Positions 44,806 to 54,373 of a stretch of 64,000 nucleotides of DNA are shown in pieces. The notes beneath the pieces were generated by a model. The model was not told the origin of the DNA, did no database searches, and saw only the letters and a list, made by a program, of their open reading frames with translations. Both the position numbers and the translations under genes were made by a program. Source of the stretch: Bacteroidetes bacterium 41-46 (GTDB lineage Bacteria > Bacteroidota > Bacteroidia > Bacteroidales > UBA932); assembly GCA_001897515.1 (NCBI GenBank), contig MKTA01000015.1, positions 62,001 through 126,000 of the forward strand. Direction: 5' to 3'. The first letter of the stretch is position 1. The number at the start of each line of letters is the position of its first letter.

Positions 44806-44841
44806 AAATAAGAGGTGATTAAAAATAATCACCTCTTATTT
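44806..44841. terminator. Hairpin between convergent genes, possible bidirectional terminator
   Basis: AAATAAGAGGTGATTA-AAAA-TAATCACCTCTTATTT. Confidence 0.7.
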
Positions 44842-46004
44842 TAGTTCTTTATTGATGCAATCTCTTTGATGGCGATAATCGCTGACTCAACTTCATCATG
44901 TGTAGTGAATGCCCCTATGCTCATTCTAACTGTTCCGTGCAGATCGTAAGTTCCTATCTGTTTGTGAACAAATGGAGCGCATTGTAATCCGGTTCTAACG
45001 GCAATATTATAATCCACATCCAGCATGGTACCAACATCTGCCGCTTCAAATCCGCAAATATTAAAAGATACCACAGGATTCTTATTCTCTCTCCCATTAG
45101 CGCAATAAGTTACGACTCCGTTAATCTTTTTGATCTCTGAGACAAGCATATCCCATAAGTCCATCTCTTTTTCATGTATCTTAGATATGCCCTGCTCGGT
45201 AATCCATTTAACACCGGCGTAAAGTCCGCCAACACCAAGCAGATTCAAAGTTCCATACTCTAATCTGTATGGATATTCGTCCAGATGTGCAAGGTGGGCA
45301 GAGCGTACACCTGTTCCACCGGCCCTGGAGTGCTTTATCTCGATTCCCTCTCTTACATATGATCCGCCAATTCCTGTAGGTCCCATAAGACACTTATGTC
45401 CTGTAAAGCAATATACATCAACATTGCACTCTTGCATATCAAACTCAACAGAGCCGGCACCCTGACTTCCATCAACGACAAATAACACCCCTTTCTGCTT
45501 GCATATTGCCCCTATCTCCTTTAGAGGTTGAATTGTACCCAGTACATTTGAACAGTGAGTAATAATCACAAATTTTGTATTTGGTCTTATTGCTGCTTCA
45601 ATATCTTTGGGATTCACATATCCTTCAATATCAAACGGGACATGTGTAGTCTCAATTGTTCCGTTGATTGTATGGTGATATAGAGGCCTTAATACAGAGT
45701 TATGCTCAAGCATTGATGTAACAACGTGATCTCCTCTCTCAACAAGGCCGTTAATAATCAGATTCAACGAATCGGTAGCGTTATAGCTGAATGTTAGCCT
45801 GTTATGATCCTGCCCTCCATTAAAGAGGCGGGTTAGCATTTTTCTTGTGTTATTTACAACCTCCTCTGTTTCAAGTGCTGCGTCAAAGCCGGAACGACCG
45901 GGACTAACTCCTTTAGTTCTGTAGAAAGTGTTCATAAAATCATAAACACTCTCCGGTTTGGGATAGCTGGTGGCAGAGTTGTCAAGATAAATCAGTTTGC
46001 TCAT
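44841..46004 (-). CDS. Class V aminotransferase / cysteine desulfurase-family protein
   Basis: IYLDNSATSYPKPESVYDFMN...GFDAALETEEVVNNTRKMLTRLF...VDGSQGAGSVEFDMQECNVDVYCFTGHKCLMGPTGIGG...AVRTGLQCAPFVHKQIGT (catalytic Cys loop). Confidence 0.9.
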   Translation of the reverse strand: MSKLIYLDNSATSYPKPESVYDFMNTFYRTKGVSPGRSGFDAALETEEVVNNTRKMLTRLFNGGQDHNRLTFSYNATDSLNLIINGLVERGDHVVTSMLEHNSVLRPLYHHTINGTIETTHVPFDIEGYVNPKDIEAAIRPNTKFVIITHCSNVLGTIQPLKEIGAICKQKGVLFVVDGSQGAGSVEFDMQECNVDVYCFTGHKCLMGPTGIGGSYVREGIEIKHSRAGGTGVRSAHLAHLDEYPYRLEYGTLNLLGVGGLYAGVKWITEQGISKIHEKEMDLWDMLVSEIKKINGVVTYCANGRENKNPVVSFNICGFEAADVGTMLDVDYNIAVRTGLQCAPFVHKQIGTYDLHGTVRMSIGAFTTHDEVESAIIAIKEIASIKN

Positions 46005-46015
46005 AGCTTAATTTT

Positions 46016-47287
46016 TTATGTTTTTTCAATAATAATTGCATCTGCTACTAACTCTGCAATTGTTTTAATTTTTACCCCCAGTTTGTAAGTGTGGTTTAAC
46101 TGTGTCAATTGATCAACACAATTGTGGCAGGGGGTAACAACAACCTTAGCACCACTTTTCCTTATCTGATCTGCTTTAATCTCACCAGCTCCAACCCGTC
46201 TGTCATTATATTCGCTCATTGCAAGCAATCCACCGCCACCACCGCAGCAATAATTGTCATTTCCGCATGGAGTCATTTCTGTAACATTCTGCGCTGAAGA
46301 ATTTACTACAAACCTTATCTCTTGCAACAATCCTCCATTTCTTACAAGATTACATGGGTCATGAATTGTAACGGCCTCTTTGTTTAGAGTTGGATCTAGC
46401 TTTATCTTCCCCTCTCTTATATAAGAAGAAGTTAGCTCAACTGCAGTAGTCATATCAAACTCATACTCTTTGCATAGATAATTGGGAGCCTCCCAGCGGT
46501 TCGCCCTTGAACCATGCCCGCACTCCCCAAGCACAAGCAGAGCTGAGTTCAAGCCTATTACCTCATCGTGGAGATTTTTTGCTATCAAGGCAGCCTCTCT
46601 TTTATTGCCATTGAAGAATCCATAGTTTGTAACATCATAATATTTTGAAGAGAGAGTCCAGCTCTCTCCGGCGGCATAAAAAATCTTAGCCATTGCAGAT
46701 ATTGAGAGGGGGAAAAACTTAGGTTCTCTGGGGTTAAGTGTGTAAAACACCCTTTTCCCCTTTTGATTAAGAGGAATTGATGCATTTTGATCATTAAGCT
46801 CGTCCCTAAGCTCCTCTTCCATCCAACTTATTGTGCCCACAAACTCATCTTCAGGAATTCCCATATTGTTACCAGTATTTACAGCTGCATCAACTGTTGA
46901 CTGAAGTGTTGAGGGTACCAGGCCCATCTCTGCAAGCATCTCCCTACCTTTACGAACAACAAAAGCTATGTCCACTCCAATTGAGCAGTGTTTAACACAC
47001 CTTCCGCACATAGTACATGCTCCAAAAAGGAGGTCAACCATCCTCTCTGCCATCTCCTGAGACATCTTTTCGGCTCCTACGAGTGACGGAATTAATCTGC
47101 CTGATAAGGTGTTGTACCTTCTGTATATTGAACTTACAAGAGCCACCTTTGAGGCTGGTATATAGTCGGGATCACTAAATTTCTTGTAAAACATACAGCT
47201 GTCAGCACATAGCCCGCATTTTACACAGGCATTTAGATGAGTCAGCAACTTACTGTCAATATCTTTAAATTTCAATATACTATCCAT
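46016..47287 (-). CDS. 4Fe-4S/CCG-domain protein, HdrD/DsrK/TmcB-like
   Basis: CVKCGLCADSC...CTMCGRCVKHC; CCG-like motifs HDPCNLVRNGG...PCGNDNYCCGGGGGLLAMSE...VVTPCHNCVDQL. Confidence 0.87.
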   Translation of the reverse strand: MDSILKFKDIDSKLLTHLNACVKCGLCADSCMFYKKFSDPDYIPASKVALVSSIYRRYNTLSGRLIPSLVGAEKMSQEMAERMVDLLFGACTMCGRCVKHCSIGVDIAFVVRKGREMLAEMGLVPSTLQSTVDAAVNTGNNMGIPEDEFVGTISWMEEELRDELNDQNASIPLNQKGKRVFYTLNPREPKFFPLSISAMAKIFYAAGESWTLSSKYYDVTNYGFFNGNKREAALIAKNLHDEVIGLNSALLVLGECGHGSRANRWEAPNYLCKEYEFDMTTAVELTSSYIREGKIKLDPTLNKEAVTIHDPCNLVRNGGLLQEIRFVVNSSAQNVTEMTPCGNDNYCCGGGGGLLAMSEYNDRRVGAGEIKADQIRKSGAKVVVTPCHNCVDQLTQLNHTYKLGVKIKTIAELVADAIIIEKT

Positions 47288-47918
47288 TGCTTACCTTTTT
47301 TTGAGGCCATGAATTGCGTCTGCCATAAAATCTTCCCAAATGGTATCTTGCAAAGAAAAAATAGATCAGGTGTCTTGTTTTTCCTATCGGCACCCATACC
47401 AAAAGAACTGAATAGACAACAAAATAAAGGGGCACAAGTGTTTCTGTCAAAAGAGCAATTGAGCTCATCAATAAGGAAAATGTCGTCAATCCATTTGATA
47501 TATAGTCATCTGCTCCTGAAATTGCCCTGATATCTCTCTTAACAATCCTCTTAACAAGAATAAAGAGACCTGAAAAAGAGCTAATCAAGAGAAAAAGACT
47601 TATGCTTGCGGTAAGGTATTGGGAGATAAAGAGGATTTTAGGGAAGATAATCATTAAAAGTAATACAGGGAAAGACAGAAACACTCCAAAGTGGAATAAC
47701 AATCCTGCTATGTATGTCGGCAGATGGAGATATGCCGACTCCTTTTCAAATGGCGACATCGCCCCTGTAAATGAATAGACTATACCATCTTTCTCACTGC
47801 CGGATGGTTTGGAAAAATCTCGTTTGTTGCCGGCAATCAACAATTTTGTCATCTGATACACAAGGGAACTCAGGCAAAATATAAATGCAGCAGCTGCAAG
47901 TAATCTGAAAATATCCAT
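47280..47918 (-). CDS. Cytochrome b-like membrane subunit (HdrE/DsrM/TmcC/NarI-like)
   Basis: Five or so TM segments with HFGVFLSFPVL and C-terminal GKTRHLIYFFFARYHLGRFYGRRNSWP; directly upstream of the HdrD-like gene. Confidence 0.7.
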   Translation of the reverse strand: MDIFRLLAAAAFIFCLSSLVYQMTKLLIAGNKRDFSKPSGSEKDGIVYSFTGAMSPFEKESAYLHLPTYIAGLLFHFGVFLSFPVLLLMIIFPKILFISQYLTASISLFLLISSFSGLFILVKRIVKRDIRAISGADDYISNGLTTFSLLMSSIALLTETLVPLYFVVYSVLLVWVPIGKTRHLIYFFFARYHLGRFYGRRNSWPQKKVSNG

Positions 47919-47931
47919 TTGCTCTACCTAA

Positions 47932-48249
47932 TTAAACGCAGCCGTCCGGTTTTGGCAATCCTGCCACTTTACAGGCACCTCGTGCTGGACCAAGCGGAAA
48001 AAGTTCATATATCTCTCTTAGCTTTAGTCCTGTCTCCTGGCAAATAGTTCTGATCATTGGGGCGTTACCCTTTTCATCAAAGTTTCTTCTTATTATGTTG
48101 ACAATTGCCCAATGTTTGTCATTCATCTCCTCAATTCCATCGTTTTTGGCGAAGAGCATCGCAACCTCTTCATTCCACAAAGATGGTTCTGTAAGAAATC
48201 CGTCACCGTCAACTTCAAAAACTTTTCCTTCAATTTCAAGAGTAGCCAT
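47932..48249 (-). CDS. dsrC: DsrC/TusE-family sulfur carrier with both C-terminal cysteines
   Basis: MATLEIEGKVFEVDGDGFLTEPSLWNEEVAMLFAKNDGIEEMNDKHWAIVNIIRRNF...LYELFPLGP-like segment IYELFPLGPARGACKVAGLPKPDGCV (two Cys 11 residues apart). Confidence 0.93.
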   Translation of the reverse strand: MATLEIEGKVFEVDGDGFLTEPSLWNEEVAMLFAKNDGIEEMNDKHWAIVNIIRRNFDEKGNAPMIRTICQETGLKLREIYELFPLGPARGACKVAGLPKPDGCV

Positions 48250-48310
48250 AAGATTTAGGTTTAACAACTGTTATTAAAAAGTATTGATTACGAAGATAAA
48301 AAAATATCGT

Positions 48311-48341
48311 TTTGAAAGGAAACTTTAATAAATTATATTTG
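48311..48341 (+). promoter_or_regulatory. Putative promoter of fhs: TTTG (48311-48314) N19 TATATTTG (48334-48341)
   Basis: Consensus Bacteroidota -33/-7 pair. Confidence 0.65.
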
Positions 48342-48384
48342 TTATGATTAAAACGTATGCATTTACTTACAAATAATTAGAATT

Positions 48385-52178: not shown

Positions 52179-52763
52179 TTAATTCATATTAATAAAATTC
52201 CTTAAAAGCATCTCTCCTGCCTCACCGCTCTTCTCAGGATGGAACTGAGTTCCATAAAATCTTCCATGAGATAGAGATGACGAGATCAAAGCACCATAAT
52301 CAGTAACAGATGATGTTTCAGAAGATATTTCAGGTGCGAATGAGTGGACAAAGTAGAACCACTCGCCCTCTCTTATACCGTTAAAAAGAGGACCTTTAAG
52401 GTTAACCGCTTTATTCCATCCCATATGTGGTATTTTAAGCTTTTCAGCTTTAATCCTTTTTACCCTTACTGGAAAAAATCCTAAACAATCAACATCACCC
52501 TCGTCGCTATGGGTGCACATTAGCTGTAGTCCAATACATATTCCAAGAACAGGTACGAATGATCTTTTCAGAATTTTATCAATTCCTCTCTTATTTATAT
52601 TATTAATTAATCCTGATGCCTCGCCGACACCCGGTAATATTATTCTATCGGAAGAGAGTATTAAAGAATCATCATTAGTTATTATGTATCTCTCTCCTAT
52701 CCTCTCCAGAGCTGCTCCCAAAGAGAACAGATTCCCTGAACCATAATCAATAATTGCTGTCAT
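52179..52763 (-). CDS. hisH: Imidazole glycerol phosphate synthase glutaminase subunit
   Basis: TAIIDYGSGNLFSLGAALERIG...RIILPGVGEASGLI...VLGICIGLQLMCTHSDEG...GTQFHPEKSGEAGEMLLRNFI. Confidence 0.96.
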   Translation of the reverse strand: MTAIIDYGSGNLFSLGAALERIGERYIITNDDSLILSSDRIILPGVGEASGLINNINKRGIDKILKRSFVPVLGICIGLQLMCTHSDEGDVDCLGFFPVRVKRIKAEKLKIPHMGWNKAVNLKGPLFNGIREGEWFYFVHSFAPEISSETSSVTDYGALISSSLSHGRFYGTQFHPEKSGEAGEMLLRNFINMN

Positions 52764-54373
52764 AAACTCCCTTTACTACTTATTATTTTTTGACCTCTGC
52801 GACTATCATCCAACATCATTTTTAATGACTTAGCAAAGGCTTTGAAAATTGATTCCACCATATGGTGTGAATTTGTACCAGAAGTTTTAATATTGAATGT
52901 TGCCTTCATACTTTTTGAAAGAGTATCAAAAAAGTGTCTGAACATATCAGACTCTATATTCTCAACAAATGGTACCGGAAACTGAACATCCCAGGTCAAA
53001 CAGGCTCTGTTACAGAAATCCAACATTACAGTAGATGATGACTCATCCATTGGCAGGGAAAATCCATATCTTCTGTTTCCAAAAGATAAGGTCAGCAGCT
53101 CATTTAAAGCATCTCCAAGTACTATAGCGATATCTTCAATAGTATGGTGAGGACCATTTTGAATATCACCCTTTACTAGTATTCTTATTGAAAGTCCGCT
53201 ATGTACCGGCATCTGTTCAAGCATATGGTCAAAAAACGAGATTCCAGTAAAAATCTCACTATCCATAATTCCTGACGGGTCAAGCCTTACTGACACATTA
53301 GTCTCTTTTGTGCTTCTGGTCTTTTCAACAAATTGAACAGACACCTCTTTTAGAGTGCCATTTAGAAGGTTTAACAATAAATTATTCTCACTCACTGAGC
53401 CAACAGTAATTCTTAAATAACCTTTACTACCGTTTATGTTTGTTATATCTCTTACTATAACACCATTATTTAATAACATTTTATGTATTACTTCATGATT
53501 GCTAAATTTTACTAATAAGAAGTTTGATTGAGAAGGATATACCTTTATAACAGATGGTAAAGCGATCAGACCCTCTCTGAGTCTCTCCCTTTCAGAGATT
53601 ATACTCCTGACATATCCTGAATTCCCTTTTTTAATTAACTCTATGGCCTTTTCCTGACTAAGAATACCAATGTTGTAAGGGGGCTTTACTCTGTTCAAAT
53701 ATCTGATAATCTCATTTGAAGCCATTGCAAAACCTACCCTTAATCCAGCCATACCCCAAGCTTTTGACAAGGTTCTCAACACAATTAAATTCCTAAATTT
53801 TCTTACATCCAGTGCAAATCCCATTTCTTCAGAAAAGTCTATGTATGCCTCATCTATAACAACAATCCCATTAAATCTTTTTATTATTTGCACTATCTCT
53901 TTCTTATCCAGCAAATTTCCAGAAGGGTTATTTGGAGAGCATAGAAATACGATTTTTGAGTCAGAGTCAATCTTTTTAAATAGATCATCCGCACAAAGAG
54001 TAAAGTCCTCCTTAAGAGTAACCTCAACGCATTTAATATTGTTAATAGTTGCCCAGGTTTTGTACATCCCAAATGATGGGGACAAGCAGACGATTCCATC
54101 TTTACCGGGTTCGCAAAATACTCTAATAATCAAATCAATAATTTCATCACTCCCATTACCAGCAAAAAGATTATCAACAGGTACTCCTGAGAGATTTGAG
54201 TATGCCACTCTTAGCTTTTTACTTTGAGAGTCAGGATACCTGTTATATCCATTATTGAAAGGGCTCTCATTTGCATCCAGCAAAATATTGACAAACTTAT
54301 CTACCTTGTCTCTTAATGAATTGTAGGGTTCAAGGTTTACAATGTTCTCTCTTACAAGATCTCTTATCCTCAT
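52760..54373 (-). CDS. hisCB: Fusion: histidinol-phosphate aminotransferase (N-term) + imidazoleglycerol-phosphate dehydratase (C-term)
   Basis: N-term: LDANESPFNNGYNRYPDSQSKKLR...FAGNGSDEIIDLIIRVF...RTLSKAWGMAGLRVGFAM; C-term: VEKTRSTKETNVSVRLD...GISFFDHMLEQMPVHSGL...HHTIEDIAIVLGDAL...PMDESSSTVMLDF...SGTNSHHMVESIFKAFAKSL. Confidence 0.94.
   Translation of the reverse strand: MRIRDLVRENIVNLEPYNSLRDKVDKFVNILLDANESPFNNGYNRYPDSQSKKLRVAYSNLSGVPVDNLFAGNGSDEIIDLIIRVFCEPGKDGIVCLSPSFGMYKTWATINNIKCVEVTLKEDFTLCADDLFKKIDSDSKIVFLCSPNNPSGNLLDKKEIVQIIKRFNGIVVIDEAYIDFSEEMGFALDVRKFRNLIVLRTLSKAWGMAGLRVGFAMASNEIIRYLNRVKPPYNIGILSQEKAIELIKKGNSGYVRSIISERERLREGLIALPSVIKVYPSQSNFLLVKFSNHEVIHKMLLNNGVIVRDITNINGSKGYLRITVGSVSENNLLLNLLNGTLKEVSVQFVEKTRSTKETNVSVRLDPSGIMDSEIFTGISFFDHMLEQMPVHSGLSIRILVKGDIQNGPHHTIEDIAIVLGDALNELLTLSFGNRRYGFSLPMDESSSTVMLDFCNRACLTWDVQFPVPFVENIESDMFRHFFDTLSKSMKATFNIKTSGTNSHHMVESIFKAFAKSLKMMLDDSRRGQKIISSKGSL

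Follow-up and report, generated by a model that had tools for sequence, protein, structure and literature searches.

The DNA considered here is a 64,000-nucleotide window (G000:C15:62001-126000) from the genome of Bacteroidetes bacterium 41-46, a Bacteroidales-type draft assembly of 2.47 Mb in 34 contigs that is 93% complete. Positions 44841-48249 of its minus strand are occupied by four consecutive open genes in the order dsrC, M', K' and CSD, where M' stands for a membrane protein, K' for an iron-sulfur (FeS) protein and CSD for an enzyme of the cysteine desulfurase family. The spacing along the operon is 13 bp between dsrC and M' and 11 bp between K' and CSD, while M' and K' overlap by 8 bp. 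A preliminary description of this stretch had read the four products as a DsrC with both redox cysteines, a cytochrome b-like membrane protein, a CCG-domain FeS protein and a cysteine desulfurase with a catalytic-loop Cys, and had postulated that together they form a redox module that is linked to sulfur but separate from sulfite reduction. The cluster lies as it had been placed, and the observation is confirmed.

The first product scores over the cut-offs of both DsrC families (PF04358, E 1e-33, 116 versus 24.9 bits; TIGR03342, 97.4 versus 53.5 bits). Its start is the ATG at 48249, and the mechanical open reading frame of 111 codons begins at a TTG six codons further upstream. In the numbering of that longer frame, the C-terminal arm carries C99 and C110, 11 residues apart and both invariant in 97 two-Cys homologs, and it is this pair that places the predicted protein in the redox-competent class of DsrC and not with TusE. 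The nearest relative of solved structure is the Desulfomicrobium DsrC chain 2xsj_C (E 2e-29), whose arm reads GPGKGACKMAGLPKPTGCV where that of the window protein reads GPARGACKVAGLPKPDGCV, and the AlphaFold model superimposes on this chain with a TM score of 0.87. A third cysteine, C76 (C70 when counted from the ATG), is likewise invariant in the 97 two-Cys Bacteroidales sequences, and its position is held by Ser in both aligned chains from sulfate reducers.

By its family model, its expected pyridoxal phosphate Lys and its loop Cys, CSD is predicted to be a group II cysteine desulfurase. It exceeds the cut-off of TIGR01977 (413 versus 377 bits), among solved structures it lies closest to SufS and other cysteine desulfurases, and K204 (the expected cofactor Lys), C342 (the catalytic-loop Cys), H101 and R360 are invariant. 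The genome encodes a separate full-strength Aminotran_5/SufS-like protein (460 bits), so CSD is not its sole desulfurase, and a housekeeping role for CSD was rejected on this ground. A tree built with YedF/SelD-linked paralogs, SufS and CSD2 (entries L115 and L116 disregarded) recovers the module CSD as monophyletic with a support of 0.76 only. A useful outgroup for the module CSD is found in loci L162 and L163, where a TIGR01977 paralog sits in selenium operons with SelA-like, SelB-like, YedF and SelD-like genes. A second, ~500-aa protein of the class-V aminotransferase fold (Aminotran_5), with a CxC at the catalytic-loop position, was also seen directly upstream of the two-Cys dsrC in about 15 loci, L090:5375-6895, L078:5421-6941 and L138:4539-6065 among them; the L090 copy scores under all desulfurase cut-offs. 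In L103, CSD is followed by a gene resembling cysteine synthase.

The two remaining genes would encode the redox partners. K' matches Fer4_8 and CCG in Pfam (PF02754, 36.0 versus 20.6 bits), and its cysteines are invariant in 81 sequences: C21/24/27/31 and C91/94/97/101 make up two ferredoxin-type 4Fe-4S sites, C312, C347, C348, C387 and C390 follow the five-Cys pattern CX34CCX38CXXC, and C256 is invariant as well. The predicted protein thus has one complete CCG site of the heterodisulfide reductase type in addition to the two 4Fe-4S sites. Its NCBIfam scores (TmcB 288, HmcF 286 and DsrK 234 bits) all lie under the equivalog cut-offs, and these matches assign it to the TmcB/HmcF/DsrK group without making it a DsrK, since it fails the curated cut-off of model NF045796 (400 bits). 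M' has no match in Pfam, none in a sequence search of the PDB, and NCBIfam matches under cut-off to TmcC (7e-9) and HmcE (4e-8). Its AlphaFold model (pLDDT 90) finds high-probability fold matches that are all NarI chains (probability 0.99-1.00), yet with E values of 0.08-0.2. Candidate heme ligands are H76 and H183, which are invariant, H65, kept in 97%, and position 193, which is H or Q. The model and these residues suggest that M' is probably a heme b subunit and a NarI/TmcC/DsrM-like anchor. The pair had been likened to HdrD/HdrE; its closest resemblance is to TmcBC, HmcEF and DsrMK, combined with a NarI-like anchor, and HdrDE proper is more distant.

The four genes are kept together across many anaerobic Bacteroidales. 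A scan of public genomes with K' returned 80 loci, nearly all in Bacteroidales isolates and metagenome-assembled genomes (MAGs), Butyricimonas included, plus Ignavibacteria MAGs; 62 of them hold all four genes, 4 hold dsrC-M'-K', 13 hold K' alone and 1 is cut by a contig end. Co-occurrence was then measured by searching a sample of 295 genomes from the order for DsrC, K' and CSD, with a score of at least 520 bits defining a CSD ortholog; those found score 521 bits or more. Two-Cys DsrC is present in 33/295 genomes spread over 23 families. A CSD ortholog accompanies it in 32/33, as against 0/262 of the others (Fisher p 4.6e-42), and identical figures apply to K' (32/33 versus 0/262, p 4.6e-42). 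Fisher tests ignore shared ancestry; the pattern nevertheless recurs across the 23 families. Among the incomplete cases, G148 is represented by a short contig ending inside K', and in G073, where K' was not found, dsrC directly adjoins CSD. In G120, G218 and G122 the module genes lie far apart or on separate contigs, with CSD on another contig, and all are retained. The link outlasts gene dispersal and, between DsrC and CSD in G073, the loss of K', and the module is no accident. Across 396 genomes of the phylum, a CSD ortholog was found in only two, that of the window and a genome from another class, which makes the trait chiefly one of Bacteroidales. The desulfurase is conserved with the other three genes nearly without exception, and the set is essentially confined to Bacteroidales (plus the Ignavibacteria MAGs) and not spread over the phylum at large.

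The PF01077 (NIR_SIR) family covers DsrA, DsrB and the siroheme sulfite and nitrite reductases, and a search for it came back empty in all two-Cys DsrC genomes (33/33), the window's own and a closed 2.66-Mb genome of the same genus among them. As DsrAB is the defining component of the dissimilatory sulfite reduction (Dsr) system, its absence means that the module is not a member of that system. Of the three outcomes that had been named as counting against the earlier interpretation, two, a dsrAB elsewhere in the genome and an unconserved desulfurase, were looked for and have not turned up. The proposal of a redox module outside sulfite reduction gains support from the missing siroheme reductase and the conserved CSD, and the interpretation as a whole is upheld in part.

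A second class of DsrC in the same order serves as a control. Of 60 such loci fetched, 59 gave a readable DsrC sequence, in which the penultimate Cys (CysA) is present in 59/59 and the second arm Cys (CysB) in 0/59, where S, T, A or M stands instead. These one-Cys proteins lie beside a type III sulfide:quinone reductase (SQR) in 58/59 loci and beside DsrE2 in 56, and show no association with CSD (p 0.82). Taken with the two-Cys pattern, a DsrC that has CysB is accompanied by CSD and the membrane reductase, and one that lacks it by SQR. The loci with SQR (L174-L232) show a conserved Bacteroidales operon of type III SQR, a 190-236 aa 'f44' protein, one-Cys DsrC and DsrE2, often with a Crp-type regulator. 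The 'f44' protein, which in its L090 copy matches nothing in Pfam or NCBIfam, is a candidate sulfur-transfer partner. A published survey states that CysB is almost exclusive to organisms with DsrAB, with few exceptions (Stockdreher 2012, PMC3397948). The two-Cys DsrC set of Bacteroidales is a large new exception to this rule, and one in which the components that would give CysB a purpose are also encoded.

Table. Features of the dsrC-M'-K'-CSD operon and its flanks, in window coordinates
Feature	Position	Strand	Basis
DsrC, two-cysteine (redox-competent) class	47932..48249	-	PF04358, TIGR03342; C-terminal arm GPARGACKVAGLPKPDGCV
M', NarI/TmcC/DsrM-like membrane anchor, probable heme b subunit	47280..47918	-	NCBIfam, AlphaFold model, conserved His
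K', TmcB/HmcF/DsrK-like FeS protein	46016..47287	-	NCBIfam, Pfam Fer4_8 + CCG, invariant Cys
CSD, predicted group-II (SufS-like) cysteine desulfurase, DsrC-associated subfamily	44841..46004	-	TIGR01977, invariant residues, tree
Terminator-like perfect 16-bp inverted repeat	44806..44841	.	Pattern scan; consensus match alone
Divergent intergenic region dsrC/fhs, presumed promoter	48250..48384	-	Position and sequence

The operon (see the Table) is flanked upstream by a divergent fhs gene for formate-tetrahydrofolate ligase, followed by his genes, and downstream by a convergent CYTH-domain gene, with which it would share the 16-bp hairpin at the CSD stop codon. In the window, 52760-54373 (-) encodes a 537-aa protein that, read by eye, looks like a histidine-biosynthesis fusion of a histidinol-phosphate aminotransferase-like N-terminus and an imidazoleglycerol-phosphate dehydratase-like C-terminus.

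In several relatives (L078, L082, L085, L090, L096, L138 and L155), the operon is contiguous with DsrE2, MvhD/FlpD, two HdrA-like genes and an HdrC-membrane fusion, and TusA belongs to this linked cluster in L138, by family search, and in G069 (L155), by genome position. Some loci also join the module to SQR and one-Cys DsrC. The window's genome carries a comparable cluster, unlinked to the operon, at G000:C30 ~174996-180705 (L164:5996-11705), where DsrE2, TusA, MvhD/FlpD, HdrA-like proteins of 431 and 595 aa, a helix-turn-helix-type protein of 93 aa and a QmoC-like fusion follow one another. The fusion resembles QmoC with E 4e-56 in L138 and 1e-40 in the window's genome, both under cut-off. 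From its gene content the cluster is a predicted Qmo-like complex with sulfur carriers, in a genome without DsrAB, and it holds the tusA that the preliminary description had wanted looked for. TusA occurs in 17/33 two-Cys DsrC genomes, and was rejected as a universal partner of the module on that count. Some loci (L067, L069, L076, L088, L093, L098), several of them from rumen or gut MAGs, show a lone K' immediately behind a PatB C-S lyase cluster gene (TIGR04350, 486 bits versus a cut-off of 340 in the L088 copy), which suggests that a different supplier of cysteine sulfur adjoins this reductase subunit there.

Regarding the quinone, MenA is absent in the window's genome and in G224. Each has two PF02621 (MqnA/MqnD) genes and one UbiA-family prenyltransferase gene, as expected of the futalosine route, and the notion that no quinone is made because MenA is missing was rejected once MqnA/MqnD had been found. 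PF02621 gave no match in 5 of 15 module genomes tested (G001, G202, G034, G241 and G150). The suggested link to the quinone pool is thereby plausible for the window's genome, given its MqnA, MqnD and UbiA-family genes.

The model that we favor, with a probability of roughly 55%, is that of a DsrC redox module fed by cysteine. A dedicated desulfurase would load DsrC in place of DsrAB, and M'K' would use menaquinol to return DsrC to its reduced state while sulfide is released. CSD would take the sulfur off L-cysteine, leaving alanine and a persulfide on the loop C342, as is the chemistry of its family. The sulfane sulfur would then pass to CysA of DsrC, either directly or via TusA/DsrE2. A precedent for this step comes from in vitro work in which Escherichia coli IscS, given cysteine, persulfurates Allochromatium vinosum DsrC at its penultimate Cys and nowhere else (PMC3397948). 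By analogy with the trisulfide/disulfide chemistry of DsrC in sulfate reducers, CysB would attack next, so that sulfide leaves and a CysA-CysB bond remains. Finally, K' may break this bond with electrons that M' draws from menaquinol in the membrane, as its family suggests; in sulfate reducers, DsrMKJOP has been proposed to restore the DsrC thiols with menaquinol (PMC10504309, PMC13232883). The net reaction would be cysteine + MKH2 -> alanine + H2S + MK (MK, menaquinone), a small sulfur respiration or electron sink.

Several observations weigh against this model. The biochemical steps, the electron direction and any proton-motive force are predictions from gene content, and direction and energy balance are the weakest points. 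With an E0' of about -75 mV, menaquinol is poorly suited to reduce a persulfide or disulfide, and the reaction may proceed only if product is removed or a driving force is supplied. The roles of CSD, DsrC and K' are predictions from sequence; as K' lies under every equivalog cut-off, its substrate could differ, and as position 193 of M' holds Q instead of H in roughly one homolog out of four, a second heme is uncertain. On the genomic side, 4/80 K' loci have dsrC-M'-K' without CSD within 6-8 kb, the 13 lone K' loci, many from rumen or gut, have no DsrC, M' or CSD nearby, and retention of the remaining genes elsewhere in the genome was seen for the dispersed G120, G218 and G001 only.

Other explanations share part of this evidence. 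DsrC and M'K' might be a general thiol-disulfide or sulfane-sulfur reductase, supplied for the most part with polysulfide or thiosulfate from the environment via TusA/DsrE2 (plus SQR in certain species), with CSD as a minor or regulatory feeder. The contiguity of the module with DsrE2, TusA and Qmo-like genes, its junction with SQR and one-Cys DsrC in some loci, and the TusA and DsrE2 of the Qmo-like cluster in the window's genome would all fit. This explanation is nonetheless unlikely: the constant partner is CSD (32/33 genomes) and not TusA (17/33), the DsrC of G073 keeps CSD when K' is not found, and the DsrC that goes with SQR/DsrE2 alone is of the other, one-Cys class. The same division by class bears on an oxidative run, in which DsrC thiols, with sulfide, would be oxidized by K'M' into the quinone pool while CSD draws on or buffers sulfane sulfur. 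DsrMK homologs also work in sulfur oxidizers (PMC10504309), and the SQR and Qmo-like genes co-located in some species are compatible with oxidation; against it, the SQR-linked DsrC is the other class, and the 33 genomes searched hold no DsrAB or NIR_SIR protein to carry sulfane sulfur to sulfite. Cysteine desulfurases release sulfur and are not known to run in reverse. Taken together, an oxidative direction appears very improbable.

It is also conceivable that DsrC, loaded by CSD and held in the reduced state by M'K', acts in the manner of TusE and delivers sulfur to tRNA thiolation or to the assembly of FeS clusters or cofactors. In E. coli, sulfur travels from IscS through TusA, TusBCD and TusE to MnmA (PMC3397948), and the operon of the window's clade lies among his and fhs genes, a housekeeping-type neighborhood. 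We regard such a biosynthetic relay as quite improbable, given that TusE-type carriers need CysA only and CysB is invariant here, that the second, SufS-like gene is present, and that a gene set found in only 33/295 genomes of the order is not essential. As for selenium, CSD could be a selenocysteine lyase or another enzyme of selenium metabolism, with the operon handling that element. SclA (NF040779) is its second-best NCBIfam model, and TIGR01977 paralogs do occur in selA-selB-csd-yedF-selD operons. But the SclA score of 309 bits fails the cut-off of 525 by far, the selenium-linked paralogs are 41-44% identical to the module CSD and branch outside its clade, and G210 and G129 carry both kinds; a selenium function for CSD and the operon was rejected accordingly, and hardly any weight remains on it.

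The favored cysteine-fed model has a wider, more tentative extension, on which we would not quite bet: cysteine-sulfur respiration, with the persulfide/disulfide of desulfurase-fed DsrC as the terminal acceptor for a menaquinol-oxidizing DsrMK-like complex in fermentative Bacteroidales. This would be a third drive for the DsrC cycle, beside sulfite reduction by DsrAB and reverse-Dsr sulfur oxidation, and a hidden source of H2S in guts and anoxic sediments. The literature search found no link between Butyricimonas and high H2S, and in a study of hens the correlation between them was negative (PMC6813079). Two-Cys DsrC serves as a signature of DsrAB-based sulfur metabolism, and the exceptions assembled here form a large clade of patchy distribution, for which a desulfurase as sulfur loader with the reductase kept is a consistent explanation. 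If this is true, Bacteroidales of guts and sediments could be breaking cysteine down to H2S by respiration and not by a plain lyase reaction, gene surveys that equate dsrC with sulfite reduction would be misled, and a minimal energy-conserving part of Dsr (DsrC plus M'K') would be open to study without the accompanying sulfite chemistry. The gene set is undescribed in the literature searched, a search outside which most subscription papers and preprints fall.

Among known systems, the DsrC-DsrMK(JOP) system of sulfate and sulfite reducers shares with the module a two-Cys DsrC of nearly identical arm, a probable quinone-facing cytochrome b with a DsrK-type FeS subunit, and the proposed reduction of a CysA-CysB trisulfide or disulfide. 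It differs in that the module has no DsrAB and the operon no DsrJOP, that a desulfurase takes the place of DsrAB, and that K' reaches 234 of the 400 bits asked of DsrK. TmcBC and HmcEF of Desulfovibrio give the top scores, TmcB and HmcF for K' and TmcC and HmcE for M', but the module stays under the equivalog cut-offs, its operon has no multiheme cytochrome c or NrfD-like gene, and it is tied to CSD and DsrC. In the HdrDE complex of methanogens, too, an FeS disulfide reductase with a CCG domain is anchored to a cytochrome b and reduces a thiol disulfide with electrons from the membrane, as may be the case in the module; unlike HdrDE, the module has one complete CCG motif, a NarI-like anchor and, as presumed substrate, the protein DsrC in place of CoM-S-S-CoB. 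In the IscS-TusA-TusBCD-TusE relay of tRNA thiolation, a desulfurase feeds a carrier of the DsrC family at its penultimate Cys, as proposed here, although TusE has one Cys and no membrane reductase, whereas in the module CysB is invariant and the membrane reductase is co-encoded. The TIGR01977 (EF2568-type) desulfurases of selenium clusters exceed the cut-off of the same family model as CSD, which forms its own clade and has DsrC partners instead of SelD/YedF. By analogy, the module would thus work like the terminal part of the Dsr system, a DsrC/DsrMK-like chemistry with a desulfurase as its loader.

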